Below, piece after piece: positions 3,121 to 45,885 of a stretch of 64,000 bases of DNA; positions within the stretch are counted from its first letter, which is position 1, and the number at the start of each line of letters is the position of its first letter. Where the stretch lies: assembly GCF_000801105.2 (NCBI RefSeq), contig NC_079514.1, positions 21,120,293 through 21,184,292 of the forward strand, written 5' to 3'. The DNA comes from Raphanus sativus (taxonomy: Eukaryota; Streptophyta; Magnoliopsida; Brassicales; Brassicaceae). Below the pieces are notes generated by a model, which was given only the letters and a program-made list of their open reading frames with translations, was not told the origin of the DNA and searched no databases. The position numbers were made by a program, and so were the translations under genes.

Positions 3121-3198
3121 TCGATCGATATCCTTTTGAGATATCGATCGATACACCTTTCGCTCGGCGATCGATTCACCTGTCGGGATATCGATCAA
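3121..3198. repeat. Phased TCGATCGA array, LTR position 2
   Basis: Cores or one/two-mismatch cores start at 3121, 3144, 3167 and 3191, i.e. 23-24 bp apart. Spacers do not resemble each other. Confidence 0.85.
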
Positions 3199-3764
3199 CG
3201 GCTTCTAGATATGCCTAGGCGCGAGCCGATAATGAACATTAGGTCTCAAGGAGGGCTGTCGCTCTTCTCAATGGGAGACAAGCTAGCTCAAATGGATAAT
3301 TCAAGATAATCAAAGATCCTAGTGATCTATATTCTAGTTAGCTACTCTAGAACAAGCATAGGGTGCAATCCATTTGATGAGTACCACAACTTAGCAATTA
3401 TAGTTTGGGGCTAATCCCACAAACCTATTTAAACCCTAGATCTAAGAAGTAGACTACTCAGACATAGCTAAGCAATTCATGACAATGGATAGATGAAAGA
3501 ATTGCATAGATAGAAATAAGTAGAAATACAAAAGGAGATGAGAAATCTCTCCAATCTCTCCAAACAAATAAAACTCTAGTCTCTCTTCCACACTCTCTGC
3601 TTTTCTCTGAGTTGTTCAAAGCTTGCTTCTCTCGAAGTTGCCGTCAAAAAACACTTAGCAGGAATATTTAAGCATTTCCATTAGGTTAAAAACCCGTCAG
3701 GGGCAATCTCGTAATTTGATGAAGTCTTGGTGAAGTAGTCGGCTAAACCATTTCGTCCTCGATA

Positions 3765-3864
3765 TCGATCGACAACACAAGATGTGTATCAATCGATTAT
3801 AATCTTCTAGTACGTGGATCTTCTAAGCTACATCGATCAACAACTCTGGATGAGTATCGATCGA
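3765..3864. repeat. Phased TCGATCGA array, LTR position 1
   Basis: Cores start at 3765 and 3789 (24 bp) and at 3833 and 3857 (24 bp), two pairs separated by 44 bp. The same two-pair layout occurs at 45136-45235. Confidence 0.85.
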
Positions 3865-4045
3865 CTATAATCGCAATGTTGACTTCCGACTTGGTCTTGA
3901 ATGGTCAACTCGGGTGTATCATCTCTTGTACTCACGAAATGCTCCTGAACCTAAAAACATACCTAACATGCTAGAAAACAGATTAAATATATAATAAAAT
4001 ACTAGTATACCATGGTTAAAAACGGGTAAAATCCATGGTATATCA

Positions 4046-4289
4046 GGGAACAACCTCGGGATCACTCCGTCTGCTTGTTCCGCTCGGGAACAGTCATCAG
4101 ACCTGTAATGACTCGAAAAGGACTAGAAAGACTCGATAAAGACTTGAAAACCAATTAGAAAACATATATACAATGATGTATAAAACACCATATATCAAGT
4201 ACTTACAATGCAATCCAAAATACATGCGAGGGTAAAACGAAAGCCAACTTGAACCAAGTATTAACTAGAAATTAGAAATTCAATTCTGA
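4046..4289. other. Unassigned spacer
   Basis: About 240 bp between an Athila-type LTR and a decayed Athila pol. I see no coding potential or recognisable repeat. Confidence 0.5.
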
Positions 4290-6763
4290 TAGAGATCATA
4301 AGCTCGGACTCATATACTCTGCACTAGAACAAAAATTTGAAACCCTGAGCGACCAAGTTAAACACATAGAAGTGCAAGTAGCAGAAAACGCTAGGCTGAT
4401 GAGAAGGGAAGAATAACTTCTCCCTAGGAGAACTTATATTAACCCAAGGCTTCATGTCAATGCAATAAAATTGAGAAGTGGTAAACAAACTCAACCCTTA
4501 TCCAAAGAAAGGGATCACTGTAGACGAATTCGTTGAGATTAAAGCTGATGAAGAAGACGATTCAAGGGAGGCACCGATCGATACCACAAAACATTGATCA
4601 ACGCCTTTCCCAGAATTGGAGGAACCTGATCTTGGACGAATACCCGAGAAACCGCAGAAAGATAACCACGTTGAGAAGGAGTCAATTGCCAATCCGAGTA
4701 ACGATCGACACTCTAAGGGTCATGATCGACACGCTGCTCCACCTGGTATACCAACAACGAGTTCCTTTTCACAAGGGCCAAAATAAAGCTAAACAAGAGT
4801 TAGATGATGCCATGTGCATAAAAGCTTTGGACAAACTAATTGTTGAGATGCCTCTTGTTGACGCAGTATGTATAACTCCTACGATTAAAAGTACGTCAAG
4901 CGGATGATGACCAAAGGTTTCAGAACCACATATCAAAGTGTGATTATGGTACCCGAGCAATTTAGTTTGTTAATTAAGGAAGGGACCCCTAATAAACTTC
5001 CAGACCATGGTAGTTTTATTCTCGATTGCAACATCTACACAAACTAGATTTCATAGATCTTTTTGTGACTTAGGAACTAGTGTGAACATAATGCCCATTC
5101 AGTAGCAATAGATTTAGGATACTAAGAATTCCAACCTACCAGAATCACCTTGGTACTAGCTGATAGATCAGTGCGAACTCCTGAAGGTGTTTTAGAAGCC
5201 ATTGATGATTAACAATTCCCTGATACCCACAGACTTTGTAGTATTGAAATATGGTCGAGAGCCAAAGAATCCCCATATCTTGGGAAGACTTTTCCTCGCT
5301 ACATCCGGAGCAATCATAGATGTAAGAAAAGGGAACATCAGCCTGAGAGTCAGTGATTTATCAATGACTTTCGACATGCAAAAGCTAGTCAAGAGATCCA
5401 TGATTGATGGCCAAACATTATTCATAGATCATCTGACTGAACTAGCGAATGAATCATTTAAGGATATATGTTCTGCAGACCCTTTAGAGCGAGTTCTCAC
5501 CGCTTCCATCGACGTTGAGATATTACTGGATGACTGGACTGCCGAGTACATTCGCCAAATGGATTCTCATCAGGAAGTTATGAAGATTGACTCAAAAGTG
5601 GAAGAAGACGAGGTACCAAGTATCACTTGATACCCTAAGAGTGAAGATCAATACCTTTAAGAGGCGAACAGCATGATTCAAGATAAAACCCCTAAACTTG
5701 ATCTTAAAACACTTCTTGCCGGCCTAAATTATGCCTTCCTCTATGAAAAATCCTATCCAGTTTTTGTCAATGCGAAACTAACCGACGGAGAACTGAATTT
5801 ATTGTTAAGTAAGCTAAGCAAACATCGCAATGCATTTGGATATTCGCTTGACGATATTCCCGGTATTGCTTCCAATTTGTGCATGCATAAAATCCACCTA
5901 GAGGACGAATCAAAATCATTTATAGAAAATCAGCGAAGACTGAACCCGAACTTGAGAAAAAATAGTGAAGAAAGAAATATTTAAGCTTCTCGAAGCGGGA
6001 GTCATCTATCTGATTTCTGACAGCGATTGGGTTAGTCCAGTACATGTTTTTCCGAAGAAAGGAAGAATTACGGTTGTAAAGAATGACAAGGATGAACTTA
6101 TCCCTATGGGGCTGTAACTCGACACCGGATGTGTATTGATTACAGAAAGCTCAACGCTGCGACTAGGAAAGATCATTTGCCCTTACCTTTTATCAATCAA
6201 ATGTTGGAGATATTAGCAAATCACCCATACTACTGTTTCCTTGATGGATACTATGGATTTTTTCAGATCCCTATCCATCTTAAGGATCAAAAGAATACAA
6301 CTTTTACATGCTTTTACTGAACATTCACATGCCTAGGAATGCCTTTTGGACTATGTGACGCTCCATCCACTTTCCAGAGATGTATAATGTCCATCTTCAC
6401 ATATATGATTGAAGGTCTTATGGAAGTATTTATGGACGATTTTTTTGGTTTATGGATCAAATTTCCAATCATGCCTAGATAATCTTTGTAAAATACTAGC
6501 GAGATGTGAGGAAAAGAATCTTGTCCTAAATTGGGAAAAATACCATTTCATAGTAACTTATGGTTCTATCTTAGGACATATGGTTTCAGAAGTGGAATAG
6601 AAGTAGATAAGAGCCAAAATTAAGGTCATGACAGTATTACTTGCACCTACTAATGTGAAAGACGTTAGAAGTTTCTTGTGACACACTGGTTTCTATACAA
6701 CGTTCGTAAAAGACTTCAGTAAGATTACCTGACCACTCACGGCTGAAAGACCATCAATTTTCT
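4290..6763 (+). pseudogene. Decayed Athila gag-protease-reverse transcriptase
   Basis: Translated fragments in several plus-strand frames follow the order of the intact family: gag C-terminus (4290-4500, ending in a LRSGK-type motif), aspartic protease with CDLGTSVN (about 5060-5110) and TDFVVLKY (5220-5250), the linker before RT (5673-5984), and RT with MCIDYRKLN (6129) and the catalytic FMDDF (about 6430). It stops within the connection after RT; RNase H and integrase are missing. Many stops and indels make it clearly dead and older than the neighbouring minus-strand Athila. Confidence 0.85.
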
Positions 6764-6856
6764 AGTTGTCAACCATGGTATAGTTGTTTTAGAGTCTATT
6801 ATATGGGTTTGGAGTATGTTTTAGAGTGTTTTCAGGTTCAAGTACGATCTGGGAAC
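6764..6856 (+). repeat. Short plus-strand Athila-type LTR remnant
   Basis: About 90 bp resembling the start of the plus-strand LTR at 44937 (accatggtata ... ttttcaggttcaag). It probably is the 3' LTR remnant of the decayed element to its left after an internal deletion. Confidence 0.6.
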
Positions 6857-7205
6857 TGATACGTGCTCAAATTACCCTAGAATAACTTTACTCGCATCAA
6901 AAGAGGTCAATTTGTAGTACTTAGGGATTAAATCCACATGGATCTGGGGCACACACTAGATCTTATTAGAACTAAGCTAGGTTGAAGAATTGAAAATTGT
7001 AAGTAAACTAAAACAGTGAACAAGACAATTGCTCGATTGATTGATTTGGGGTTTAGCAGTTATGATGAAGGTGTTAGACTTAGGGTTCTATTCAGGTTAT
7101 TATGATTATAATGGTATGAATGCTTATATGAGATGCTTGAACGATATTAAAGAACTCAACAATAACAATAACAATAACCGATGAACCGTTTCTTGGATTA
7201 TCTAT
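6857..7205 (-). repeat. Old Athila-type LTR, left piece (split by insertion)
   Basis: Begins tgatacgtgctcaaattacc, the plus-strand left edge typical of these LTRs, and is cut at 7205 by the 12.4 kb element. The remainder lies at 19592-20482. Positions 7201-7205 (tctat) are the target-site duplication. Confidence 0.8.
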
Positions 7206-7632
7206 TGATCCTTGCTCAAATTACCCTATAGAAATATTACTCTCATCAAAAGAGATCAATTGTAGTACTTAGGGATCGAATCCACAGAGACTCTTGGATT
7301 ACACAATAGATTTTATAGTTTTCGAAATAAAGCTAGATTGAAAGGTTTTTAGAATAGTAACTTGAATGTAAACATGAAAATTGCTGGATATCCAGAAGTG
7401 TATATCGATCCACGAACTGGACAATTGCTCTACTTCAGATTAGGGGTTTGTTATCAATTCGGGAAGGTAGCTAGATCAAGGTAAATCTTAGGTATAACAA
7501 GCATACTGCTTTTAAGGATTTTAAGGGGTTTTAAATATGGTTGTTCTCGAACTCAACTCTTAAGAACAATCTAATGATTGTCTAATAACTGGATCTCAAG
7601 TCAGCTGTCGCTTGTTCCATAATGAGGAAGCA

Positions 7633-7710
7633 TCGATCGATGTATCTTATGACAATCGATCGACAGCCTTTTAGATAATCGATCGATTACTCGAACATCG
7701 TATCGGTCGA
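7633..7710. repeat. Phased TCGATCGA array, LTR position 2
   Basis: Cores start at 7633, 7656, 7679 and 7703 (spacing 23, 23, 24), the last as TCGGTCGA. Confidence 0.88.
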
Positions 7711-8363
7711 TTATCCTTCCAGTAAGCATTACCGAGCAGGTTGATAGGTTATCAGATTAATTAGGGCAACTGTCGTTTTTAGCTAATTAATAAGATCAGT
7801 CTAGTTTATTTTCAGGCAATTCACCATGTTGTCGCGTGCGCAAATTAAACCTAAGATCTAAGTCAAGGGTGATCAGTTCCTTTACTTAGCATTAAGTGCA
7901 ACTAGAATGAAAGAACTATTAAAACACCCTAACAATCCTATTATGATCAGCAATACATAAATCAACCTTTGCTAAACCTAAATCTAACAGTAAGACTACT
8001 CAGACATTCATAAGAAGCATAATTATGATGGTCTGAATAAAACTTTTAATAAAAAATAGACTAAGAAAACAAAAGGAGTTCAAGATCTTCTCTGTTTATG
8101 CAGCTCAAATCTCTCTCTCCAGGATATATGTCTTCTTCTCTGCTATTACTTCTCTCCTTGGTGATGACTTTGGTGACTTGCTTGTAGCCTCCTTGATTGC
8201 TTTTTGTTTTTTCTCTTCTTAGTACTCCTCTATTTAAATGGTTCAAAAACTCTAAAACATGACCTAACAGGAGGCCAGGTCATATTATGCAATTATGATA
8301 TCTTTTTGGGTAAAACTCGTAAATCTTCTAATCTTCATTAAGATCGATATGGAAAATGCCCAA

Positions 8364-8419
8364 TCGATCGATTCTTGTGATTCTCCATCGATCGACCTTG
8401 ATGTTGATGCATCGGTCGA
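8364..8419. repeat. Phased TCGATCGA array, LTR position 1
   Basis: Cores start at 8364, 8388 and 8412 (24, 24). The 5' LTR has one more unit at the matching place. Confidence 0.88.
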
Positions 8420-8611
8420 TACTCTCTTCAGTGGCCAGCTCGCGAGTAATATGAAATATCTCCAAAAAGTGTCAAAATGCATCATAATCATCACTTTATT
8501 CCAATGAGTACCTAAACCGAAATATCTCTAAAAGAGCTACAAAATACATATAAAGCCTTTGAAAACATATGAAATCTATGGGTTAAATAGGGTAAAATAT
8601 AGAGTATATCA

Positions 8612-8622
8612 ACTCCCTCAGA
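8612..8622 (-). other. Polypurine tract adjacent to the Athila 3' LTR
   Basis: The minus strand reads TCTGAGGGAGT directly before the LTR start TGATATAC. Confidence 0.8.
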
Positions 8623-10030
8623 CTTATCCTTTTGCTTGTCCTCAAGCAAAATATAGAACAAATCTGAAAAAGATTTTGAAAATAATGGGGACTCACATAA
8701 TTTAAAATCAGTACTCAAATTCTTGCATAAAAGATAATGGAAGTGAGTCATTACTAACTTTAAGGATGATTTGATATACTACACACTAGCTTAGTCATCA
8801 TACCATACAATCTACAATTCCACTGATTGTGCCTGGCATACCCCTCTACTGACCTCATTTCTGCATAAACACATATTGGGAGTATCGATCACAAGACACA
8901 TGGATTCGACTCAAGCAAATTTCTGAACCACATGTAATCTTTTCTGATCCCTTTCTCCCCTCATCTCTCTTCTCTGAATCTCTAATTAGTTTCAACTTCA
9001 ATGAATTTCGATGCTGATTGAGGCCATCTATTTCATCTCATTTGACATAGTTTCATTTGTAACTTATACATTTTGACAAAGTGTAGAGAATAATGGGATC
9101 ACAGGTAATTAACTTATCCCTCGTTTCCACAATGTGTGATCATCCTTGAGATTTAGAATAATGAGGTCGCAGGTAATATACCTATCCCTCTGCCTCTCAA
9201 GAAGTCATTTCAATCTTTTATATGCTTAGATCTTGAGATGCCGAAGAGAGAGAAGGAAGGGAACCAGAAGAACACAGACTTTTTACCTTCTAGATTTGCA
9301 AGAGGATTCCGATCTTATGTATACCAAGCCCCAAGACAATCAGTTTTTGTATATTAAGGTTGGAAGTCAGCTTTGGTTTCTCCAGACATTCTCAGCGGGT
9401 GCAAGTGTTAGTATTTCATGATACACTGCGGTGTTTTTATCTACTACATCCTGCAAGTTAGTAAATCTAGATGGTGCTAGAGAATGGTTAGAGTAGTAAT
9501 CAAATTGTTTTAGTTCATAATCCCCTTTAAAAACATTTATAATATATAATAGTAGTTTTTGAATTTTTTTGAAAATACTTTAGATATGTAGAATTTATAG
9601 CTCATTAATAGAAGATAAAGTTAGTAACGACCTCCCCCAGACTTAAATTACACTGTCCCAGTGTAATCCGTCTTAGAGTGGTTAAAAATGAAGAGCAAAA
9701 ATAATTGGAATGGTTAATGATTAGAGTTAGGATAGTCGTACCTTTCTGTCTGCGCATCGATCGATACCGGTACCTTGGTATCGATCGATAGCTGATTAGA
9801 CAAAAATCAAGATAGTGTCTGAAACTGTCTAATCCATCTGATCTGTTAGTTATGTAAGTGATGTTTAGACAATCCAAACTCAGAAAGCAAGTAATAAGTC
9901 TGAAACAGAGAAGCAAATAGTATCAAACACAAATCCTAAAAATCTGAAAAAAAATAAAATTGCATAGAGATAAGGGATAGAAATGTGAGGACTAGTCGGA
10001 GTCCTCTCCTGCCTCGTCGTCATCTGCAGA
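8623..10030 (-). other. Athila 3' noncoding region
   Basis: No coding frame. It aligns with 43573-44925 of the gag-only element (shared segments around 8880-9420 and 9620-9660), showing that the two families share their 3' end. It includes an internal purine tract and a pair of TCGATCGA cores at 9758 and 9782, 24 bp apart. Confidence 0.75.
9630..9641 (-). other. Second, internal polypurine tract
   Basis: The minus strand reads AAGTCTGGGGGAGG about 1 kb upstream of the LTR-adjacent tract, preceded by ACTGGGACAGTGTAATTT. The same string sits at 43915-43946 of the gag-only element. Confidence 0.7.
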
Positions 10031-11470
10031 CTAGTTATGCTGGTACTGGTGAGATGGTCCTGCTGCTGCTGCGTCACTAGCCCTGACGCTCCTCCTGTTC
10101 ATGCACCTGCATCGAGACACTCTGGACCAGATAGCCTGAAGAGCATCCACGAGGACCCTCTGAAAATCCCCAAGGTCACGGATAGGCAGCTCCGGAATGT
10201 TGGGGAAGTCAGGCAATGGTGGATCGGCTAGGACCTGGGTAGCTGGAGCTCTCCACTCTCCTGGAACTCTGCGCGGCATCTCTTGCGGGTCGCGGAGAAA
10301 TGCCTCATCGGGCTCGAACCGAAGCCTATCATTGCTCGCAGCGAAATCCGTGACGTGAGTGGCTAGGAGCTCTATCAGACGGATGCGGTTACCAGCCCTG
10401 AAACTCCAGCACCGGTCCTCTTTCAGCCACTTGGTAGAAGTAAGCTGTCGCACATCCATGTAGGCCCGTGCGGTGCGAGCGTCATCTGCCTCAGAACGGA
10501 TGCCCAGATACTGGAAGATCGGTGTAAGTAAGCTCCCAACAGTCTCCTTCTTCTCCCCTATGCCCTTAAAGGGCTTTGTCTTCAGGCCCACCAGCTGCTC
10601 AGCGAAGATATACCCAAGGTTGGGTATTGCCATGTCGTGATCGGGGTCCAGATGTGGCATCTCCACTAACCTGTCCAACACGAAGTACAACAATGTGAGC
10701 TCGTCAATCCTCACCTTATTGGGCTCCATCTTGCACAACAGTGTGTTGGCAAGGGCCCTGATGAAGTAGCGTAGGGTCGGATGACGGATGTCTGTCTGGG
10801 TGGCAGATATGCTCCAACGGCCTGTGCCGATGATCTCCCAGAACTCACTGATCCGCGGAAAGAGGGAACTCTGATGCCGGTGGCTGCGGCGTTGATGCCG
10901 TAAATCTCGCAGAGCTCGGAGATGGTGAGCTGGTACCTGATGCCTCGTGCAAAGAAGTGGAGAATGGCGTCTCCTGCGACGCGACCAGGTTCGGCAGAGT
11001 AAGTGAGATCAGATGTGGCGATGAACTGCCTGACCAGAGGAGGGTAGAGGTCGTAGGTCTGGGTGATCATGGTGCCGAGACCAAGCTGTGTAATCATCTC
11101 TCCCAAGTCAGACTGAAGACCAAGTCGCCTCGTAGTGGCTTCGTCCACAATGGGTGTAGGGAGGATCTTGACAGGTATCCATGCGTTGTAGAACAAACTG
11201 TCATAGTCGTCCCAGTCTCTCGTTCTCCGACGATTGGTGCACGTGGGAATCCGTACGGACTTGTATGGGTCCGGGAATCTCTCCACCGTCGTGATGGGCT
11301 TGTCGGTTTTCGAGGCCAAGGACATCGCTCATCGGGTAGGCGCGGTGGTGACTCCGATGATGATGAAGTCGGAGGGTCTGAAGATAGAGGTGTGGGCGGT
11401 GCTCTAGAGCTGCGAGGTCTGTCGAGTCTCTGCTTCGTCCTCCTCTCGCGGTCTCTGTTCCTTCCACTCA
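10031..11470 (-). pseudogene. Athila post-integrase ORF (env position; ATHILA ORF-1-like family)
   Basis: Starting near 11470 on the minus strand: a basic, Ser/Pro-rich N-terminus (MSGRNRDRERR), then conserved sequence with DWDDYDSLFYNAW and LYPPLVRQF, then a helical C-terminal half with MCKMEPNKVRIDELTLLYF. Frame changes near 11325 and 10725 break it into three parts. Its place after integrase is where Athila elements carry their extra gene, often called env-like. I see no clear signal peptide or membrane segment, so an envelope role is not supported by this copy. Confidence 0.75.
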
Positions 11471-12276
11471 TCTGCAAGCAAAACAAACGCATACCGTTAG
11501 TAAATGTAATCGTTAAAGCTCTTGTATCTGTCGATACTCGTATAGGAGATCGATCGATACAGACTACTAAGTATCGATCGATATGTCTAATTGACATCGA
11601 CCGATTTCTGTATACAATCTTGTCGATCGATACGACATCTCCTTTGCCGATCGATACGACATCGCGAAACCTGCAAACAAAAATCTCAACCCAAATCGCA
11701 ATTTCAACACACAGAGAAAAAATCGATCTATTCTAGAACCTATTCATCGTGCTAACAACCTAAATCGACCAAATTCATGTCTAATCGTTCGATTTATATT
11801 CAAATCAAAACTCAACCATGAAAAATCCCAAATCATAGAATTTCGAGTTCAAACCTTGTAGATCGGTTGATTTGATGAGAAAACAGGATAGAGAAGTGAA
11901 AAACAAGAGGATTGACGCAAGGAATGAGCAAAATCGGTTTGTTTCTATAGAGAAAAATGGTTTTCTGTTTTTCGGCGTGTTTATGCGATTGTGGAAGAGA
12001 AAAGACGGATATCGAGGTTAATGAGCTTCAACCTTGATTTATCCGTAATGATCGATATGCATTCGGCATTGTCGATCGATTTTCAGCTTCATCCCTTAGC
12101 AACTTTTTATTATTATTATTTTTTTAATTATTTTTTTTATTTTATTTATTTTTATGATTTAATTAATTATGAAAACTAAAAATCCTAGATCTATTAGTGG
12201 TTTGCCTCTCACTTGGCGCTTATTTTAAGTCATGAGCTTGACTAATTGAGAATCAGTTCTAGATTGGAATATCCAA
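11471..12276 (-). other. Spacer between integrase and the env-position ORF
   Basis: Noncoding. It has a phased TCGATCGA array (11550-11654) just upstream of the ORF start and a T/A low-complexity run at 12105-12175. Confidence 0.7.
11550..11654. repeat. Phased TCGATCGA array in noncoding spacer
   Basis: Cores or near-cores start at 11550, 11574, 11597, 11623 and 11647 (24, 23, 26, 24). Lying directly 5' of the env-position ORF, it could be a regulatory array (inference). Confidence 0.85.
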
Positions 12277-13760
12277 TCACAGATTATCAGCATCTGGGAT
12301 TACTGCTTTGGCCCAATAGTGTTTCACTCTGTGTCCATTCACGGTGAATTCATTTTCTTTTTCATTTGATAGAGTTATTGCTCCATAGGATCTTGCATCC
12401 TTAACTGTGAAAGGTCCTGACCAACGAGATCGGAGCTTTCCAGGAAACAGATTAAGTTGGGAATTATAAAGCAGTACTTGGTCATTAGGTTTGAAATGCC
12501 TAGAATTAATTTTCTTGTCATGATAGGCTTTCGTCCTTTCCTTATAAATTTTTGAAATCTCATATGCCAAGTGTCGGATTTCATCTAATTCATTTATCTG
12601 TATAAGTTGTCTCTCGGCAGCTGGCTTAATGTCAAAATTTAACAAATTTTAACGGCTCATGCTGCTTTTTGTTCAAGTTCAACTGGTAAATGACTGGCTT
12701 TTCCATACAGTAAATGAAATGGTGTAGTCCCTAATGGAGTTCTAAAGATAGTCCTATAAGTCCAGAGTGCATTATCTAATTTTCTAGACCAATCCTTTCG
12801 GGATATTCTTACGGTCTTTTCCAATATTTCTTTGATTTGTCTATTGGATACTTCCACCTGTCCGCTCGTTTGCGGGTGGTAGGGTGTGGCAACTCTGTGA
12901 TGGACTCCATTCTTTTTGAGTAGCTGATCAAAAATTTTATGGATGAAATAAGTTCCACCGTCACTAATCACTACTCGAGGTACTCCAAAACGAGGGAAAA
13001 TGATGCTTTTGAAAAATTTCACAACTACTGCCGCATCATTTGTTGGGGAAGCCACTGCTTCAACCCATTTGAACACGCAGTCTACAGCAACTAAGATGTA
13101 TTTATTTCCGTAAGAGGAGGGAAATGGTCCCATAAAATCGATTCCCAGCAATGTGACTTCAACTTCCAGAATAATTTTTTGTTGCATCTCGTGTCTTTTA
13201 CTGATTTTTTCTCTACGTTGACATCTGTCGCATTTAGCGATGTAGGCATGTGCGTCACGAAACATTGTTGGCCACCAGAATCCTGCCTGGAGAACTTTTG
13301 CTACCGTTTTGAAGGTCGCACAATGTCCAGCATAATCAGATCCATGGCAATGAAACAACATGTTGTTGATTTCAGTTTCGGCGATGCAACGTCTGTATAT
13401 TCTATCGGGACAGTGCTTGTATAAATAAGGTTCATCCCAATGGTATCTTCTAAACTCTCTAAAGAACTTCTTCTTTGAATAACCTTGGAGATCTTCTGGT
13501 TCCACATCAGCAGCTAGATAGTTGACTATATCAGCATACCAAAGTCGGTTCTTTAGGCTTATGTCTACTGCGTGCACCCCCATACTTGAACTTCTATCTC
13601 TGGTTAGATTCGGGATAAATTGGAGAGGGTTATAGGCAACACAAATTGGTAAATCAAAGGCCACTGTGCTCCGAGAAGTTTTAATTGGTCGCCTATATTC
13701 TATATCGATCGATTTAGCTTCTCTAGCATCGATCGATCTTTTGTTCGTCGCGTCAATCAA
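12277..13760 (-). pseudogene. Athila integrase
   Basis: From 13760: N-terminal HHCC zinc finger (H..H...CDRC around 13200-13390), catalytic core with [13 protein letters not shown] (first Asp), ISDGGTYF (second Asp) and [14 protein letters not shown] (Glu), so the D,D,E triad is intact. A frameshift at about 12650 separates the C-terminal part (12645-12277), which has the LRSRWSGPF motif of Ty3/gypsy integrases. The N-terminal linker holds an 8-residue repeat encoded by the array at 13705-13784. Confidence 0.88.
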
Positions 13761-36660: not shown

Positions 36661-36980
36661 CACTACAAGAAAACAGCATTTTGGCGAGGAAAGTTAACGA
36701 GGAAATATAATCCTCGTAAATGTACGAGGAACTTACGAGGAATTTACAACGAAAGAAATAAACCTCGTTATTTTCTCGTAAACTAACGAAGATAACATTT
36801 CGTCGTAAAGCCCACGTAACTTTACGTGGTCTTTACGAGGAAATACATTTTCCTCGTCAAAACCACGTAAAGCTTGCATTATCTTTACGAGGAAAACTGG
36901 AAATATAATTTCCTCGTTAAATCAACGTAAATTTACGTCACCTTTACGAGGAAATGATATACGTGAACTTAACGAAGAAT
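36661..36980 (+). repeat. CACTA terminal and subterminal repeats
   Basis: After the 13-bp terminus come about a dozen direct and inverted copies of a ttacgagg / cctcgtaa-type motif up to about 36960. In En/Spm elements such subterminal repeats bind the element's own DNA-binding protein; here that role is inferred. Confidence 0.85.
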
Positions 36981-37136
36981 TTTGAAGCACGTTTTTTTTT
37001 GCTACCTACCTTTTCCTCGCAAATTCATCGCAAAACTTCAACTACCAGATTCGAAAATTTTCTATAAATATGGAAGTTTCAACATCATTTTAAACACACC
37101 AACAAGAAAAAAAAAGAAAAACGTGAAAGGAAAAAA

Positions 37137-38354
37137 ATGTCAGGCTCTGGGAATGTCTACGAGTTGCGGAGGTGGATGTATATGCATAGAGATGCTAACG
37201 GGAGAGTGACGAAAGAATACATTGCGGGACTGGAGACATTTATGCATCAAGCAGATTCCACACCGCTCGCCCTAGAAAGCGGTAAGATGTTCTGTCCATG
37301 TCGGAAATGCAACAATTCGAAATTGGCAAATCGTGAAAATGTTTGGAAGCATTTAATAAATAGAGGTTTCACGCCAAATTACTATATCTGGTTTCAACAT
37401 GGAGAAGGTTATAATAATTATGATCAGAATGAAGCTAGTAGTAGTAATAGCAATTTTCAGGAAGAACCGGTTGCTCTTCATTTGCATAATGAACCTAGTT
37501 ACCATCAGGAGGAGCAGATGGTAGATTTTGATAGGGTTCATGATATGGTAACTGATGCATTTGTAGCTCATGATGAAGATGAAGAACCTAACATAGATGC
37601 AAAAAAGTTTTATGAAATGTTAAATGCGGCGAATCAACCACTTTACAGTGGTTGTAGAGAAGGTCTCTCTAAATTGTCGTTGGCTGCTAGAATGATGAAT
37701 ATTAAAACTGATCACAATCTACCGGAAAGTTGCATGAATGAATGGGCAGACTTGTTCAAAGAGTATTTGCCGGAAGACAATGTGTCTGCTGATTCTTATT
37801 ATGAGATTCAGAAACTGGTGTATAGTCTTGGGTTGCCTTCGGAGATGATAGATGTTTGCATCGACAACTGCATGATCTACTGGGGAAATGATGAGAAGTT
37901 AGAAGAATGTCGATTCTGCAAGAAGCTACGATTCAAGCCGCAAGGACGGGGACGTAATAGGGTACCGTACCAAAGGATGTGGTACCTACCAATTACAGAC
38001 AGATTGAAAAGATTGTACCAATCAGAGCAGACTGCTGGAAAGATGAGATGGCATGCCGAGCATACTCAGACGGATGGTGAGATGACACATCCATCAGATG
38101 CAAGAGCCTGGAAACATTTTAACAAAGTATATCCGGAATTCGCTAGCAATATCCGGAATGTGTATCTCGGATTATGCACAGATGGATTTAGTCCATTCGG
38201 AATGTCAGGGAGACAATATTCATTGTGGCCAGTCTTTCTTACGCCATACAACCTGCCACCGGAGATGTGCATGCAACGGGAGTTGCTATTCTTGACCATA
38301 TTAATACCTGGTCCGAAACATCCTAAAAGGTCGCTGGATGTTTTCCTGCAACCA
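37137..38354 (+). CDS. CACTA transposase (TnpD/tnp2-like), truncated by gap
   Basis: Residues 1-95 form a transposase-associated domain with the zinc-binding-like CPCRKCNN (about 53-60) and VWKHLINRGF. An acidic region follows, then the start of the tnp2 transposase domain: CRFCKK, RVPYQRMWYLPITDRLKRLY, and LGLCTDGFSPFG (about 345-356), whose Asp is a candidate catalytic residue. The frame is open with no stop up to the gap (406 residues); family members are usually around 1000 residues. The first Met follows a short leader and fits the domain start. Confidence 0.88.
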
Positions 38355-38454
38355 NNNNNNNNNNNNNNNNNNNNNNNNNNNNNNNNNNNNNNNNNNNNNN
38401 NNNNNNNNNNNNNNNNNNNNNNNNNNNNNNNNNNNNNNNNNNNNNNNNNNNNNN
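38355..38454. other. Assembly gap (100 N)
   Basis: Exactly 100 N. CACTA coding sequence lies to the left and Athila-type gag to the right, so the reading frame that spans the gap is an artefact. Confidence 0.98.
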
Positions 38455-38603
38455 CGATTGTCATTCTCACGCAGGGCGAGAATGGAAACCTGTATGACCA
38501 AGATGGTCATTTGCGTAATGCAACAGGTCAGAAGCTAGATGCACAGGAAACATAATCCCTGAAACCTGAAGCTGAGGCTACAGGAGAAGCTCAAACACGA
38601 TCG

Positions 38604-41600
38604 TTGGCAGACTATAACCGTCCAGACGAGTACTACACCAACAGATCAGCTATTCGACTTCCAGAGATTCAGAAGCCGAACTTCGAGCTCAAGCCTCAGT
38701 ACTACTCTCTCGTGTCTCAGATACCTTATTCTGGGCAATCACACGAGCATCCTATGGACCATCTGGAGAGGTTCGAGGATCTTATCGCTGCTATTCGTAT
38801 GGATGGAGTCCCCGAGGACTACCTACTCTGCAAGCTCTTCAAATACTCACTGATTGGAGAAGCTTCGCACTGGCTCAAGCAGCTACCTACAGGATCACTG
38901 ACATCCTGGGCCGACATCAAAAACGCCTTCCTGCGTAATTTCTTTGATGAGGCACGCGCTGAAGACTTAAGGAGCAAAATAGCCACTTTCGCGCAAAAGC
39001 CTAGTGAGACTTTTAAAGACGCGTGGATCAGATTCAAGTTCTTCCAGCGAGACTGTCCACACCATGGATTCAATGAAGTGCAGCTGTTAAGCACTTTTTA
39101 CAGAGGTATCGCCTTAAGGTATCAGATGGCTCTTGATACTGCTAGTGAGGGGAACTTCAACACTAGGAATCCAATAGAGGCTGTGAGACTTATTGAGAAC
39201 CTAGCCAACAGCAGCAGCACCAAGAACACTGACTCTGACAAGAAGAAATCGGTTGCAGCCATCGGTGAAGACCAGATGAATGAAGTCAGAGCCAAGATAG
39301 ACGCTTTACATGCATTTCTGGGGCAGCCAGTCTGCTCAGCTGAAGAAGGAGAGGCTAGAGAGGATGATACAGAGGAAGATGTGAACTACATTGGAGGTAC
39401 TGGATTTCAGAGATATGGAAACCAGAGTGGAAACAGAAACTTCTTTGGCAGTGGTCAGAAGAGTAACTACAACCAGAGTTCACAGTATCAGAAACCCTTC
39501 ACCAACACAAGGAACTACGGCAACTCAGCTTACCAAAACCCACCGCCACCCACCCAGGAGAGTAAGTTTGATGCCATGATTGATAGAGTTCTGGAAGGTC
39601 AGCAGAAGCTTACAGTAGACTTCAATGGGAAGATTGATTCTGTCTTTAACAATCTGACCACGAGGATAGATACCATCTGCACTCAAGTTAAGAAACTTGA
39701 GACACAGATTGTCCAGACTGAAGACTCTATCAGGAGGATTGGAACTTCTAAGGAAGTAGGGGAAGGAAATAGGAAACACCACGTCAATGCTATCATAGAT
39801 GATGATTTCTGGCAAGTGGTGAAACAGGAGAAGCTACAAGAAGGAGACTTTGAAGTGGAAAGTTCGCTAAGTCTCGGTGGATCACAATGGTGTCGATCGA
39901 CACCAACTAGTCCACATCGATCGACATCGACGATGTCTTTTCCGGATACGCTTGCAGACTGCAACGCGGTTAGGATATTGACACATGCTGAATTCACGGC
40001 TTCTCATCCATACCCACCCACCCACACCTACGAAGATATCGACCGACGAGACGAGCCACTCATCGATCGACACAATGAAGAGAACCGTATCGATCGATCC
40101 TATTCTCCACCTATCGATCGACACGCACCTCTCATATACCGAGTGCAACTACCATCGATAGACAGCAACCGAATCAATGCACTCAGACCCACACCGAAAC
40201 CACAAGCTACCCCTACCGAAATAACTAGTAACCCTTCAGACACTACACCTACATCAGAGGGAACTGAAGGAAGAAGGTTAAGGAGTCGGAAGGAGAAGAT
40301 TCCTAAGAACCTTAAGAGGGAAGCTAATGAAAAGGAGATTGATGGTTTCACTAAGAGAGTTATCGGAATCCCACCAGAGAAACCTTTTGAGGAGGTTTAT
40401 TTCACAAAGAGATTGTGGATGTTCTTCAGAGAAACAAGGGAGACTGAAACTGACATTAGGAGAAGGTTTGACAACGTCAGAGAAGAGATGAGGAAAAGGA
40501 TTACTTTGCTAAAGAAGAGTGATCCTGGGAAGTTTGCAATACCCTGTGTGGTACAAGGTATTGAATTTCCTCACGCACTATGTGACACTGGTTCATCAGT
40601 CAGCATCTTACCAAAGGTCATGGCAGACCATCTGGGCCTGCAAGTAGAGCCTTCACCACAGATCTTTACTTTCGTGGATTACTCTCAGAGAAACTCTGGA
40701 GGCTTCATCAAAGACCTAGAGGTGCACATTGGTGATGCTATCGTCCCTGTGGATTTTCATGTCCTAGACATCAAGCTAAATTGGAACTCTTCCCTCTTAC
40801 TTGGAAGAGCATTTATGGCTACAGTAGGAGCCATATGTGACATGAAGACCAACAGGATGTGCTTGACTATGATAGATCCAGATATCCACTACGACCCTGT
40901 CAAGCTTGACAAACCACCAGCCAAATTAGTGGTAAAGGAAGATGATACTGGTATCATCGCAGTTTGTCATTGTGAAGTTGAGTACGAGACAGAGTACTCG
41001 GGATCGATCGACAGTACTTTGACGTCATCGATCGACACATTCAAGTCAGAGGAGATCGACAACAACTATGGATCATCGATCGACAGAGACCCACCGGATG
41101 ATGAACTCGATCTACCAGATCATTGCTACCCGAATTTCGCCATCCCACCCAACCGAAAGGAAGATGATTACTCAATAAGGAGTTGGGCAGATAGCGGATT
41201 TCATGAGAGTTTTGCAGTAGACATAGCCACCTCTTCCCACAGTGGAGACCACAGTGAAGAATATGATGAAGACTATTGGGAAGAGAGAGCTTGGGAAATC
41301 TACTTGGAGAATGACAGATTTGCACCACAATCGATCGACATCAAACGCCCACCATCGATCGATTATCTACTTCATCCAGCAAAACGACATCGTCCATCGA
41401 TCGACATTGCCAGTATAATATCGATCGATATTAACCCGGACGACTTAAAGGACAAAATCGGAATTTCACCGATTAGGGCAACACATGGGTATAAAAGGTT
41501 GACAACTCAAGCCACGAAAATTCAAAACTTTTCACCTTCTACCCAGCAGCTTCCAGCATTCAGAGATTCATCAATGGAAGACTGCAACAACATGATCAAT

Positions 41601-42593
41601 CGATCCAACCGTGCAGCTAGACGTGCACCATCGACCGCCACCACCACACACCCATCGATCGACACCTTCAACAGAGCTCAACCGAGATCTCATGAACCTT
41701 ATGATATCAGGAACGTTTCACTAACACCTGATGAATTTGGAATTTTCAGGGACACAGATGGCTATGCAAGAGCTATGGATGGAAGAGTTCTGCACATAAC
41801 CAGAGAGGACATAGCAGACATCCTCCAAGTTGCCAATGGACCAGAAAACCTGTTCACACAGCAACGTAGCCATCCAAACATCCTACAACACGTCCAGGAC
41901 AACCACAACACCAACACAAGGGAGGATCCAGTTCCTCAACACTTCGGTCAACCTCGACATTCACAATCGATCGACATCGTTTCAACACCGTCGATCGACG
42001 GCGGATATCCAGGATCGATCGACAGACCGAGAGTCCGATCGCCCGACAGACGACTGGAGTTTGGACGACGTGCCTTCACTACCGATGGATCCAGGAGATT
42101 CAAGTGGGAGACTAAGGATGAATATGGTGTCTACAGAGATGAGTTTGGCTATGCTAGAGGAGTTGATGGTGAGATCATCCATGTTACCAAGGAGCAAGTA
42201 AAGAGACTTTTGGATAGAGCATCCCTTTTTCACAGAGGTTGCTTACAACTTCCAATACACACACGCCCTTACCATGCATACACACCACCACCAGTGCCCT
42301 ACAGTAGAGAGGAGGTGGATGATATGGTGACTGATGTATGGAGAGCTCAGGCGCACCTTGAGGCAAACATGCGCACATTGGTGGAAGACACTTTCCAGCC
42401 TTTGGATGTCAGTTACAAAGACTTCCAGAATGATATGGCTGAGATAAGAGTGGAGCTTGGAAACATATTGACCACGCTTGAGAAAGAGGCTACGCCACCA
42501 GTATCGACCGACAGAGTACCTGTACCATCGATCGACATCGGCAAGACTACATCCATGGACCGACCAGAATGTTCATCACCTAAGAAAGATTAA
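38604..42593 (+). CDS. Gag-protease protein with C-terminal extension
   Basis: A 1329-codon open frame. Residues ~30-180 are a retrotransposon gag domain (YSLIGEASHWLKQLP, CPHHGFNEVQLLSTFYRG). Residues ~270-330 are Gly/Asn/Gln-rich; ~330-410 are coiled-coil-like. A linker (~430-530) carries Ile-Asp-Arg octads. Residues ~560-790 hold a basic segment and a retropepsin with CDTGSSVSILP (Asp near 661) and a LLLGRAFMATVGA flap/C-terminal motif. The remaining ~540 residues have no pol domain but contain two ~35-residue repeats (about 1042 and 1172) of the form D-E-[FY]-G-[IV]-[FY]-R-D...GYAR...DG...H-[IV]-T. The true start is further 5': coding sequence of the same protein reaches back to 38456, but a frameshift near 38547 separates it. 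The terminal TAA at 42591 is probably a mutation, since the frame continues. Confidence 0.88.
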   Translation: MADYNRPDEYYTNRSAIRLPEIQKPNFELKPQYYSLVSQIPYSGQSHEHPMDHLERFEDLIAAIRMDGVPEDYLLCKLFKYSLIGEASHWLKQLPTGSLTSWADIKNAFLRNFFDEARAEDLRSKIATFAQKPSETFKDAWIRFKFFQRDCPHHGFNEVQLLSTFYRGIALRYQMALDTASEGNFNTRNPIEAVRLIENLANSSSTKNTDSDKKKSVAAIGEDQMNEVRAKIDALHAFLGQPVCSAEEGEAREDDTEEDVNYIGGTGFQRYGNQSGNRNFFGSGQKSNYNQSSQYQKPFTNTRNYGNSAYQNPPPPTQESKFDAMIDRVLEGQQKLTVDFNGKIDSVFNNLTTRIDTICTQVKKLETQIVQTEDSIRRIGTSKEVGEGNRKHHVNAIIDDDFWQVVKQEKLQEGDFEVESSLSLGGSQWCRSTPTSPHRSTSTMSFPDTLADCNAVRILTHAEFTASHPYPPTHTYEDIDRRDEPLIDRHNEENRIDRSYSPPIDRHAPLIYRVQLPSIDSNRINALRPTPKPQATPTEITSNPSDTTPTSEGTEGRRLRSRKEKIPKNLKREANEKEIDGFTKRVIGIPPEKPFEEVYFTKRLWMFFRETRETETDIRRRFDNVREEMRKRITLLKKSDPGKFAIPCVVQGIEFPHALCDTGSSVSILPKVMADHLGLQVEPSPQIFTFVDYSQRNSGGFIKDLEVHIGDAIVPVDFHVLDIKLNWNSSLLLGRAFMATVGAICDMKTNRMCLTMIDPDIHYDPVKLDKPPAKLVVKEDDTGIIAVCHCEVEYETEYSGSIDSTLTSSIDTFKSEEIDNNYGSSIDRDPPDDELDLPDHCYPNFAIPPNRKEDDYSIRSWADSGFHESFAVDIATSSHSGDHSEEYDEDYWEERAWEIYLENDRFAPQSIDIKRPPSIDYLLHPAKRHRPSIDIASIISIDINPDDLKDKIGISPIRATHGYKRLTTQATKIQNFSPSTQQLPAFRDSSMEDCNNMINRSNRAARRAPSTATTTHPSIDTFNRAQPRSHEPYDIRNVSLTPDEFGIFRDTDGYARAMDGRVLHITREDIADILQVANGPENLFTQQRSHPNILQHVQDNHNTNTREDPVPQHFGQPRHSQSIDIVSTPSIDGGYPGSIDRPRVRSPDRRLEFGRRAFTTDGSRRFKWETKDEYGVYRDEFGYARGVDGEIIHVTKEQVKRLLDRASLFHRGCLQLPIHTRPYHAYTPPPVPYSREEVDDMVTDVWRAQAHLEANMRTLVEDTFQPLDVSYKDFQNDMAEIRVELGNILTTLEKEATPPVSTDRVPVPSIDIGKTTSMDRPECSSPKKD
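40039..40121. repeat. Phased TCGATCGA array in gag-protease linker
   Basis: Cores start at 40039 (TCGACCGA), 40063, 40090 and 40114 (24, 27, 24; all multiples of three). Each encodes Ile-Asp-Arg or similar. A further pair at 39893 and 39917 is also 24 bp apart. Confidence 0.88.
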
Positions 42594-43572
42594 TGGGAGG
42601 TTGCTTACATCAATACACGGATTGGAGACGTCTACAGCCCTCTCAACAACAATGTCGAATGGTTAAGCAAGAGGATCGATCTTCTACAGAAAGAGTTGGA
42701 TACAATTCGCCAGAATGACCAAGCTCAGAATGCTACTTTTCCATCGATCGACACACATCCTTCGTCGTCGATCGACACGAGGTTCGCAGAACTGGAAGAT
42801 AAGATGAAATCGTACATACGAAAGCATGAAATTTTCAGTTCTCCTATCCTACGATGCCAACACACAATGTCACGGCAGCTGGACAAGCTAGAAAGAGACA
42901 TGAGCATTGTTCAAGCTTATATTGATCTCCGTGACAGCAACGAAGCATCGATCGACAGGCCTAAACCAATATCGATCGACAGCGAGCCACCACCAGCGAA
43001 GAGAGTATGCACTGCAGCAGAATTTGATGATATCAAAGATCAGCTTTACGAAACCATGAATTCTATGGAGAAGAGACTCACAGAAAGAAGTGATAACATT
43101 GAGGAGACTCTCAATGAAAGAGTGACACAACCTTTGCAGAGCTACTGGTCTCTTGAAGAATGAGATACGCACTATGCAGAGCAATCTTGAGTACCAAGGC
43201 CAACGTTCAGAATCGATCGACAAAGCTGACACGGAGTCGATCGACAGTGATCCAAGCGAAGCGACCGACATACCAATTGTAGCATCGATCGATACCGCCG
43301 CTTTGGCCGATAAGGATCAACAGATTCAGGACCAGCACGCCAAAGACCAACACGCAGATCTACCTGAGCATTGTAGATTTAACTTCTATCAGCATCAGTT
43401 AGACACAGAAGATTTGGTCAGAAGGTTGCAAGTCATAAAAGCCGATTTAGCAAAGATATCTCCTAGATGGACAAGATCAGGTGATACCACAAGAAGCTTC
43501 ACTGCTGCTGAGTCCAAAGATGAGGGAAGTGTTTGCCCACCAGCGAACAAAAACCCTCACTGCACACCATGA
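42594..43572 (+). pseudogene. Continuation of the gag-protease C-terminal extension
   Basis: The frame of 38604-42593 continues past the TAA at 42591-42593 without another stop to 43163, then shifts to a second frame (43153-43572). The encoded sequence is charged and coiled-coil-like (LEDKMKSYIRKHE, MSRQLDKLERDMS), with more Ser-Ile-Asp units. The original product would have had about 1,700 residues. Confidence 0.75.
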
Positions 43573-44936
43573 GTCACTCACCTACCACAATCAAGCTAAA
43601 TGACTATAACCAAGCGCTGAGTGGGAGGCAACCCACTATTAGGTTTTCTTTTCTTTATTTTATTTTATTTTTCTTTTTGCTTTTATTTTTCTTTTCTTTT
43701 TCAAATTTATTTTGCAGTATTATTACATCCAAGTAGAATGATAATTCCATCGACCGACATTCACCATTCATATCGCTCGACACCACACGCCCATTACTAA
43801 CGATCGACGTATACCACTACGAATCGATCGACATCTTGTCGATCAGGTTTATTCATTCTAACTTGTTATATTTATTATGTTTTATTTTATTTACCTCACC
43901 ACCGGATGTTACACTGGGACAGTGTAATTTAAGTCTGGGGGGGAGTTTACTAATATGTGTTTTTATTTAAATTGTTTTTCAAAATTATTTTTCGCATAAG
44001 TATTAAATAGGAACATTGATATGGATTATTATTTGTTTGTCTGACCACTCTTTAGCACCATTCTAGATTACTGATTGCAGATAGTACTAAAGATGCTAAA
44101 GCGGATCAACTTGCTATCTATATTCACTAGCTAAGATTGTTTGAAGGAACCAAAGCCGACCTCCAACACTAATATTGACTTATTTGCTTGTCTTGGAGCT
44201 TGGATATCACTAGATCGGAATCCTCTTACAAGTCTGGAAGGTAAAAAGTCTGTGTGTTTCTGGTTCCCTTCCTTCGCTCTCTTCGGCACCTCGAGATCTA
44301 TGTTTATGTTATAAAAGATTGAAATGATTTTTTGAGAAGCAGAGGGGTAGGAGTGATTCCTGCGACCCCAGTATTCTAAATCTCAAGGATGATCACACAT
44401 TGTGGAAACGAGGGGTAGGAGTGATTCCTGTGACCCCAATATTCGCTACACTTTGTCAAAAATGTATGAGTTACAATGCAAATGTCAATGAGATGAACTA
44501 GATGACCTATGTGGCATCGAAACCTGTTGAAATTGAAACTAATAAGAGATTCAGTGAAGAGAGAAGAGGGGAGAAAGGAATCAGAGAAGACTACATGTGT
44601 GTTCAGATACTTGTTTGAGTTGAATCCATGTGTTCTTTGATCGATACTCCCAAGGTAAAGCCTGCACTTTATTTTATGTTAAGAAATGAGGTTAGTAGAG
44701 GGGAATGTCAGATGAGAATTGCTAAGTTGTTGACTAGATGAGATTGGTTGCTAAGCTAGGATAAGGCATGATGAACTTCTGTGATTAGGATGTTTAGACA
44801 TGAATTGCGAACCCATAGAGTGATGACTTCAATATATTGAATCCTTGAGTTCCTGCTATTTCCAAACATTTTCCAAAGACTACTGTTTTTGCTTGAGGAC
44901 AAGCAAAGGAGTAAGTCTGGGGGAGTTGATATACCA
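43573..44936 (+). other. 3' noncoding region of the gag-only element
   Basis: T-rich run at 43640-43735, scattered TCGATCGA cores (43822 and nearby), an internal purine tract at 43934-43945 (tctggggggg) and the LTR-adjacent purine tract at 44926-44936 (tctgggggagt). It aligns in reverse complement with 8612-10000 of the Athila element. Confidence 0.8.
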
Positions 44937-45135
44937 TGGATTTTACCCGTTTTTAACCATGGTATACTAGTGTTTTACTATATATTTAATCTGTTTTCTA
45001 GCCTGTTAGGTATGTTTTCAGGTTCAGGAGCATTTTGTGAGAAAGTGATGTTTTTGGAGCATTTTGGAGTACAAGAGATGATACACCCGAGTTGACCATT
45101 CAAGACTAAGTCGGAAGTCAACATTGCGATTATAA

Positions 45136-45235
45136 TCGATCGATACTCATCCTGAGTTGTCGATCGATGTAGCTGAGAAGATCCGCGTACTAGAAGATTA
45201 TAATCGATCGATACACATTCAGTGTTGTCGATCGA
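45136..45235. repeat. Phased TCGATCGA array, LTR position 1
   Basis: Perfect cores start at 45136 and 45160 (24 bp) and at 45204 and 45228 (24 bp). Confidence 0.92.
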
Positions 45236-45807
45236 TATCGAGGACGAAATGGTTTAGCCGACTACTTCACCAAGACTTCACCAAATTACGAGATTGCCCC
45301 TGACGAGTTTTTAACCTAATGGAAATGCTTAAATACTCCTGCAAAGTCTTTTTGACGGCAAGTTTTGAAACCCTTTGAAGCTTGAAGCTTTTCACAACCA
45401 AAGCAGAGAGTGTGAGAGAGAGACTAGAGTTTTATTTGTTTGAGAGAGATTGGAGAGATTTCTCATCTCCTTTTGTATTTCTACTTTATTCTATCTATGC
45501 AATTCTTTCATCTATCTATTGTTATGAATTGTTTAGCTATGTCTGAGTAGTCTACTTGTTAGATCTAGGGTTTAAATAGGTTTGTGGGATTAGCCCCAAG
45601 CTATAATTGCTAAGTTGTGATACTCATCAAATGGATTGTACCCTATGCTTGTTTTAGAGTAGCTAACTAGAACATAGATCACTAGGATCTTAGATTATCT
45701 TGAATTATCCATTTGAGCGATGCCTGTTTCCCGTTGAGAAGAACGACAGTTCCTCCTTGAGACCTCGCGGTCATATTCGGTTCGCGCCTAGGCAGATCTA
45801 GAAGCCG

Positions 45808-45885
45808 TCGATCGATACCCTACTGGTAAATCGATCGGTGCCGCGAAAGGTGTATCGCTCGATATCTCAAAAGGATATCGACCGA
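45808..45885. repeat. Phased TCGATCGA array, LTR position 2
   Basis: Cores or near-cores start at 45808, 45831, 45854 and 45878 (23, 23, 24). Confidence 0.88.

Follow-up and report, generated by a model that had tools for sequence, protein, structure and literature searches.

A short palindrome in phased doublets recurs through the terminal repeats, internal regions and reading frames of Athila-type retrotransposons

The 64-kb window analysed here (the whole stretch of 64,000 nucleotides, from Raphanus sativus contig NC_079514.1) is a plant centromere-like region of nested transposons and a 177-bp satellite (22177-31514). In its Athila-type retrotransposons, an 8-bp palindrome, TCGATCGA, recurs at a fixed phase of 24, sometimes 23, bp, and the unit of the resulting arrays is a doublet. 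An initial annotation of this DNA had described such arrays in the long terminal repeats (LTRs), and had passed over those in internal regions, the pairing of sites into doublets and the evidence from reading frames. Only 24 of the 70 exact copies (cores) lie in LTRs, however; the other 46 are internal (17 in element A, 25 in a gag-protease element and 4 in an element cut by the left edge of the window), many of them inside open reading frames (ORFs). From this pattern we infer, with moderate confidence, that the doublets, spread over the whole element, serve as docking sites for a DNA-binding protein acting as a dimer of dimers, which would aid the element, probably via active chromatin.

The 28,317 bases of Athila sequence hold all 70 cores, whereas 200 dinucleotide shuffles of that sequence averaged 0.46 and never exceeded 3. 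The core is the commonest 8-mer there, and the next palindromes have 6 copies. The initial annotation had noted that the 8-mer is absent from the satellite and unphased in the Copia, CACTA and chromovirus sequence; exact copies are missing from all the other 35,583 bases (35.6 kb comprising satellite, Copia, CACTA and further sequence). The base before the core is a purine in 70 of 70 copies and the base after it a pyrimidine in 69; the motif is therefore not the 8-mer first reported but a 12-bp palindrome, YRTCGATCGAYR. Exactly 24 bp separates 23 pairs of cores, a distance at which 200 shuffles gave no pair, and every one of the 70 cores has a partner with at most two mismatches 23 or 24 bp away, whereas only 5.7% of randomly drawn positions have a phased partner under a slightly wider definition. 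Steps within arrays measure 24 bp (57) or 23 bp (12), in agreement with the spacing first described, although the gap between 8-mers is 16 bp rather than 15. The remaining seven steps, between chained sites, are 44 (twice), 26, 27, 42, 48 and 75 bp.

The Athila sequence was delimited by self-BLAST (1-20486 and 38455-46285). Its parts are:
2723-4045, minus strand: type B LTR, the 5' LTR of the element cut by the window's left edge; arrays at 3121-3198 and 3765-3864.
4046-7205: Athila-like stretch without an exact core (self-BLAST).
7206-8611, minus strand: 3' LTR of element A, from an 89% self-BLAST match to 18243-19589 and alignment; arrays at 7633-7710 and 8340-8419.
8615-18236, minus strand: internal region of element A, with gag, integrase and ATHILA ORF-1 domains (Pfam); 17 exact cores, none within those domain stretches.
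18237-19586, minus strand: 5' LTR of element A (self-BLAST); arrays at 18640-18717 and 19312-19391, plus a doublet at 18384-18415.
19592-20486, minus strand: type C LTR piece; tetrad at 19640-19719 and degenerate doublet at 20240-20271.
38455-44926, plus strand: interior of the gag-protease Athila element, with ORF 38556-42590 and 25 exact cores.
44927-46285, plus strand: 3' LTR (type B) of the gag-protease element; arrays at 45136-45235 and 45808-45885.

Element A has Pfam matches above cut-off to PF03732, PF00665, PF17921 and PF03078 (gag, integrase and ATHILA ORF-1), as is expected of Athila. The LTRs, too, are of the Athila kind: their ends are TG...CA, and immediately inside lies a primer site that includes TGGCGCC, which we take to be the Athila primer site. 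For the gag-protease element only gag exceeded the Pfam cut-off, the aspartyl protease match being sub-threshold, and neither reverse transcriptase nor integrase was found in the three scanned of five same-strand ORFs of at least 100 amino acids in 38455-44926; it is thus apparently a non-autonomous form. Among the matches listed, the Athila proteins closest to the window are those of Brassica and Raphanus.

All four full LTRs carry two arrays; measured from the LTR start along the strand of the element, the exact cores lie at about 180-300 and 880-975 bp. The initial annotation had extended this to five LTRs, but the fifth piece (19592-20486) holds one tetrad and, in place of a second array, only a degenerate doublet. 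The stretch 4046-7205 has neither an exact core nor a 24-bp lag, and the code is therefore absent from some Athila-like sequence. As a control, we inspected four stretches, with the satellite left out (20487-22176, 31615-38354, 46286-64000 and 4046-7205): no palindrome exceeded 4 copies and at most five identical 8-mers recurred at lag 24. Three cores at 24-bp spacing had no match in viral contigs.

When sites with up to two mismatches were included, the runs comprised two (22), three (2), four (13) or five sites (1), so that what had been described as arrays of 3-4 cores are mostly arrays of 2 or 4 once degenerate sites are counted. Even runs made up 35 of 38, compared with 69% expected for random run ends (p ~0.0007), and the three odd runs all end, on one side or on both, in a 2-mismatch site. 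With one mismatch allowed, 31 of 34 runs were even (p ~0.01), with 7 single sites. The 23 phased one-mismatch sites include 5 CpG transitions and 12 hits on the central A/T step; phased central-transition variants stand at 7703, 8412, 11597, 17978, 18710, 19384, 40039 and 42504, two pairs of them being LTR copies of each other. The arrays, listed without strand, are:
55-86: doublet; 2 exact cores, step 24.
2364-2494: two doublets at or before the gag start of the type B element; steps 24, 75, 24, with 2 exact cores.
3121-3198: tetrad (LTR), steps 23, 23, 24.
3765-3864: two doublets (LTR), steps 24, 44, 24; spacers 71% alike.
7633-7710: tetrad (LTR), steps 23, 23, 24.
8340-8419: tetrad (LTR), steps 24, 24, 24.
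9757-9788: doublet in the 3' internal region, step 24.
11527-11654: tetrad plus doublet; 3 exact cores; between the integrase and ATHILA ORF-1 matches.
12048-12079: doublet; 1 exact core.
13705-13784: tetrad upstream of the integrase zinc domain; Ser-Ile-Asp frame.
15438-15469: doublet; 1 exact core; in ORF 14772-15851, Ile-Asp-Arg frame.
16407-16486: tetrad of four exact cores downstream of gag; Val/Ile-Asp-Arg frame.
17930-18081: tetrad plus doublet, between the 5' LTR and the gag ORF.
18384-18415: doublet (LTR); 1 exact core.
18640-18717: tetrad (LTR), steps 23, 23, 24.
19312-19391: tetrad (LTR), steps 24, 24, 24.
19640-19719: tetrad; spacers 1 and 3 are 86% alike, a trace of doublet duplication.
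20240-20271: degenerate doublet; 1 exact core.
39893-39924: doublet of exact cores.
40039-40121: two doublets, steps 24, 27, 24; between the gag and protease matches.
41004-41083: tetrad; 3 exact cores.
41331-41428: two exact doublets, steps 24, 42, 24.
41631-41685: odd run of 3; 1 exact core and two 2-mismatch sites.
41944-42046: odd run of 5; 3 exact cores and two 2-mismatch ends.
42504-42559: odd run of 3; 1 exact core, a 1-mismatch and a 2-mismatch site.
42744-42775: doublet of exact cores.
42948-42979: doublet of exact cores.
43213-43292: tetrad; 3 exact cores.
43800-43831: doublet; 1 exact core.
45136-45235: two exact doublets (LTR), steps 24, 44, 24; spacers 71% alike, apparently duplicated.
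45808-45885: tetrad (LTR), steps 23, 24, 23; 1 exact core.

The spacers of the type B LTR doublets (45136-45235 and 3765-3864) are short inverted repeats of the ACTCA...TGAGT type. Over all spacers, inverted repeats were slightly more frequent than in shuffles (p 0.002); seven spacers have inverted arms of at least 4 bases, four of them in the homologous type B LTR arrays.

We took as lying on the element's strand 20 of 79 ORFs, 8 of which contain cores. Their 37 cores fall into three frames, reading Ser-Ile-Asp (25), Val/Ile-Asp-Arg (10) or x-Arg-Ser (2), and all three occur within the single ORF 38556-42590 (12 Ser-Ile-Asp, 3 Ile-Asp-Arg and 2 x-Arg-Ser). Across the 20 ORFs, 25 of the 28 Ser-Ile-Asp tripeptides are spelled TCGATCGAY. 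Random synonymous recoding of the 8 ORFs left a mean of 4.2 cores (maximum 12, n = 500), and permuting synonymous codons within each ORF a mean of 5.4 (maximum 11), compared with the real 37. Because the cores occur in three frames and are lost on synonymous recoding, the ORFs argue that selection acts on the nucleic acid and not on the peptide. The 4,248 bases marked as gag, protease, reverse transcriptase, integrase or ORF-1 contain no core, the reverse transcriptase stretches having been marked from ORFs and homology rather than by a Pfam match.

Related proteins gave the same picture. Using the 3' part of the gag-protease ORF as the query, we analysed the best 120 of 154 proteins, all but one of which are named Brassica or Raphanus. 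Identity to the window ORF was 77.5% in cores (2942/3796), 18.2% in spacers (935/5127) and 43.0% in the rest (19616/45586), and core identity exceeded spacer identity in all 119 proteins with enough positions, although protein alignment may favour cores as anchors. For the nearest relative, Raphanus P0001, the matches were 34/36 in cores, 38/49 in spacers and 335/438 in the rest. The 120 proteins contain 1722 copies of Ser-Ile-Asp, compared with about 64 in shuffles, and up to 24 residues their distances are 8 (580), 16 (224) and 24 residues (143), with 58 at all other distances together. The other two frames share this period, with 321 and 189 sites where shuffles gave 70 and 35. Even runs predominate in all three frames among unique runs of at least two sites (452/502, 69/80 and 76/83). 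Many proteins are copies of one lineage, and these counts are therefore not independent. Grouping arrays by their flanks gave 87 groups, 31 of them with at least 5 members; in these larger groups the commonest run length was 1 (10 groups), 2 (14), 3 (1), 4 (5) or 6 (1), so that with one count per homologous group 20 of 21 were even. Pairs that switch frame repeat the 23/24 rule of the LTRs: of 127 unique pairs, 13 are at 23 nt and 2 at 25, with none at 22 or 26. A further 54, at 20, 28, 44 and 52 nt, are in 50 cases degenerate Ser-Ile-Asp sites in register that were misread. Brassica 'hypothetical proteins' rich in Ser-Ile-Asp repeats would be the trace that the DNA motif leaves when it is translated in one of its three frames.

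Beyond Brassica and Raphanus, evidence for the code is thin and its range no more than hinted at. We searched the best 120 of 7943 matches to an integrase query for pairs of motif tripeptides 8, 16 or 24 residues apart and found four proteins: B. napus P0121 and P0178, Cardamine P0136 and Camelina P0235. The Cardamine pair is a frame switch at 23 nt and the Camelina pair is at 24 nt, both in the segment before the integrase. In Cardamine P0124, Ser-Ile-Asp is spaced at 27 and 30 nt, and in Camelina P0130 a Ser-Ile-Asp/Ser-Ile-Asn pair, read by eye, is at 21 nt. Among the matches listed, no phased pair was found in the proteins labelled Arabidopsis (2), Eutrema (4) or Microthlaspi, in the nine labelled Tanacetum, Arachis, Malus, Rhodiola, Prunus or Trifolium, or in most of those from Brassica, Cardamine and Camelina. 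With an ATHILA ORF-1 query, 7 of 77 proteins (P0250, P0279, P0284, P0302, P0305, P0308 and P0313) had motif-frame tripeptides at 8- or 16-residue spacing, and the code may therefore extend to the ATHILA ORF-1 gene.

Spacers, in contrast to cores, are mostly free. Between the three LTR types the second array stays in register while its spacers diverge (alignment, by eye), and the lag-24 match beyond the core and edge bases is 0.20-0.44, against 0.26 from composition. The spacers were first described as unrelated to each other, which holds for most; three like cases among 18 and the five spacer pairs inside exact-core runs (mean match 0.47) depart from it. CpG retention, which the initial annotation had read as constraint or protection, points only faintly that way: in two LTR pairs the core CpGs were kept in 29 cases, decayed in 5 and otherwise changed in 3, compared with 29, 8 and 11 in the rest of the LTR, and spacers have only 5 CpGs.

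We propose that the YRTCGATCGAYR doublets, 24 (sometimes 23) bp centre to centre, are docking sites for a symmetric, sequence-specific protein that would bind double-stranded DNA as two cooperating dimers, one on each palindrome. The perfect dyad, the fixed phase and the mostly free spacers look like the marks of a dimeric binder of double-stranded DNA. Together with core conservation, occurrence in three frames and the codon test, they support well, at the level of sequence, the original suggestion of a phased array of putative binding sites rather than a plain minisatellite. Doublets, single or two in a row, stand in both LTRs, in the stretch before gag, in the segments between gag, protease and integrase, and in the 3' region. 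The binder may be encoded by the element or be a hijacked host protein, and would keep the element's chromatin open by activation or anti-silencing, as VANC does for VANDAL transposons. Open chromatin is our best guess for the role, as the sites span the whole element and reach beyond the promoter. Since cores persist from one lineage to another while recent LTR copies lack clear protection, it is probably propagation of the element that benefits, and not the host. A more specific form, in which the doublets recruit a dimer-of-dimers protein that coats the whole element and either counters silencing or tethers the cDNA or element to selected (centromeric) chromatin, we put forward tentatively, as one that may well not hold. 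To our knowledge, an element-wide protein coat has not been described for any LTR retrotransposon.

Several results weigh against this explanation. Counting exact cores only, 18 of 22 runs are even, which is not significant, and 20 of 42 runs are single; parity thus varies with the mismatch limit, and the doublet reading depends on including degenerate sites. Parity over all 87 protein groups is weak (46/56 even, p ~0.09), and the protein counts excluded single sites (95, 50 and 23 in the three frames) and used degenerate-site rules set ad hoc for each frame. There are also pairs that switch frame at 34 nt (11) and at 41 nt (17), in each case mostly a single recurring sequence type, the rest being single, so that the 23-nt peak is supporting rather than decisive. 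Some tetrads resemble a duplicated doublet, and parity is therefore partly descent. Of the 8 central-transition variants, 7 have TCGACCGA on the sense strand of the element, while a palindromic site predicts no strand bias. For the ATHILA ORF-1 family, which is the element's own candidate binder, sequence comparison gave no relative of solved structure, and the aligned family gave an unusable fold (predicted local distance difference test score, pLDDT, 36.7). Finally, cores are not clearly slower in recent LTR pairs, where differences amount to 6/110 in cores, 9/96 in spacers and 64/1121 in the rest for pair A, and to 9/88, 8/59 and 91/1174 for pair B. The initial annotation had expected slower evolution of the core, which the 120 relatives display and the LTR pairs do not; we read this as probable selection during replication of the element and neutral decay once it is inserted.

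An RNA-level signal is an unlikely alternative, in which the motif would act in genomic RNA or minus-strand DNA as hairpins formed by neighbouring cores, dimer-initiation contacts or a Gag packaging site. Neighbouring cores can always pair, which would alone explain doublets and even runs, and the sites are spread along the transcribed element. However, none of 38 mismatch positions in 48 doublets was compensated, a weak test because only 2 of the 48 have both members changed and the copies are decaying, which itself tells against our explanation; pairing of the flanks equalled that of shuffles. The sense-strand bias of the central variants yields a C-A clash instead of the G-U-compatible form. 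A hairpin loop has no need of 24 rather than 21 or 27 nt, and so strict a distance, 24 (or 23) bp, fits protein geometry better than a loop.

We give a similarly low probability to recognition of the sites from the host side, by a host repressor, a factor of RNA-directed DNA methylation (RdDM) or of methylation more generally, or an ordinary host activator at a plain promoter element. The weak hints in Cardamine and Camelina proteins would suit a conserved host factor, and the LTR arrays could be enhancers. Successful lineages should nevertheless lose a repressor site, not keep it, and promoter function leaves the internal sites unexplained. The spread of the sites over the element and their retention by replicating lineages make a benefit to the element likelier than host repression, and a hijacked host activator is compatible with the docking-doublet explanation.

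Less probable still is a neutral tandem repeat, either a 24-bp minisatellite or a duplicated doublet without function. Doublet duplication is the probable origin of some tetrads. In the 18 tetrads and double doublets, spacers 1 and 2, 1 and 3, and 2 and 3 match at 0.37, 0.45 and 0.41, against a background of 0.35, and spacers 1 and 3 are alike in three (19640, 86%; 45136, 71%; 3765, 71%); with these go the exact-run spacer average given above and one array called by Tandem Repeats Finder (TRF) with period 24. Duplication can account for the origin of some tetrads but not for the retention of cores, which persist while most spacers are unrelated and which, compared with relatives, are more alike than the rest, where spacers are less so. 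Nor would a 24-bp unit yield mostly even runs. As a sufficient cause we rejected the minisatellite: in most arrays, the three exceptions among 18 apart, spacer match is near background and the unit is not conserved as a whole. Selection on a repeated peptide, Ser-Ile-Asp every 8 residues, is very improbable and was rejected, since this commonest frame, for all its copies and its 580 pairs in the 120 proteins, shares period and parity with the others, LTR arrays lie outside ORFs, and synonymous codons are hardly used while recoding loses the cores.

Elsewhere in the window there are three gaps of 100 N (31515-31614, 33460-33559 and 38355-38454); the 320-bp arms 31615-31934 and 33560-33879 beside two of them are perfect inverted copies, probably an assembly artefact. 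A GC-rich 28-bp tandem repeat at 62009-62228 lies outside the Athila sequence.

Among the open-access papers listed by our searches, with subscription papers mostly outside the search, no title or abstract opening describes a code of this kind. Its closest counterparts include the repeated motifs (RMs) of Sireviruses, palindromic boxes in LTRs and upstream of env (PMC2829016). Like the Athila motif, these are short dyad motifs present in many copies in an LTR retrotransposon, mostly containing CG and varying in sequence between families, and one, Tnd-1 (ACAATCGATTGT), has the ATCGAT centre in common with it (PMC2829016). In contrast to the Ty1/copia hosts of RMs, the elements here have Athila domains; a CGG-CCG signature marks all RMs but Tnd-1, where the palindrome here has TCGATCGA; and RMs lie in the LTR and on the 5' side of env, whereas 46 of 70 cores here are internal, also between gag and integrase (PMC2829016). 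The accessible part of that paper mentions no 24-bp phase, doublet unit or copies through gag/pol frames (PMC2829016).

The VANC target motifs (YAGTATTAY; AGTTGTCC and AGTTGTAC) form tandem repeats in noncoding regions (PMC5735166, PMC10398659). As here, short motif arrays are specific to one element group, and the effect of the sequence-specific VANC protein, once bound, spreads over the whole element; VANDALs, however, are DNA transposons with a known VANC protein and non-palindromic motifs (PMC5735166, PMC10398659). The motif differs here, and arrays lie in LTRs, before gag and in coding segments. The comparison with VANC, already drawn in the initial annotation, stays an analogy, as the 10 ORFs scanned with Pfam gave gag, protease, integrase and ATHILA ORF-1 and no VANC-like family.

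A physical model for the doublet is offered by the EBNA1 sites in the dyad-symmetry element (DS) of Epstein-Barr virus (EBV) and the LANA sites LBS1/2, where dimers bind cooperatively to sets of tandem sites whose centres lie a constant distance apart (in DS, two sets at 21 bp) (PMC3798644). These belong to viral episome origins, with another sequence and protein fold, and we claim no kinship (PMC3798644). Short interrupted repeat cassettes (SIRCs) of A. thaliana, with 2-8 direct repeats of 10-29 bp and diverse spacers, can be compared with our arrays in layout, and similar cassettes are reported in ATHILA2 and ATHILA6A (PMC10342631); the arrays here have 2-6 copies of a partly degenerate 12-mer. 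SIRCs, in contrast, are defined by layout with any sequence; CGATCG is absent from the main text as available, which names no 24-bp phase, doublets or coding frames (PMC10342631).

Palindromic boxes in LTRs, as in Sireviruses, and motif arrays specific to an element, as in VANDALs, are already known kinds. New, as far as our searches go, are the fixed doublet, its occurrence throughout coding sequence in all three frames, and run lengths that are mostly even. It is unusual for selection at the DNA level to act inside genes through a motif that overrides the coding sequence. The code bears on how LTR retrotransposons such as Athila evade silencing and stay at centromeres and, being clean and countable, directs the search to a specific binding protein.

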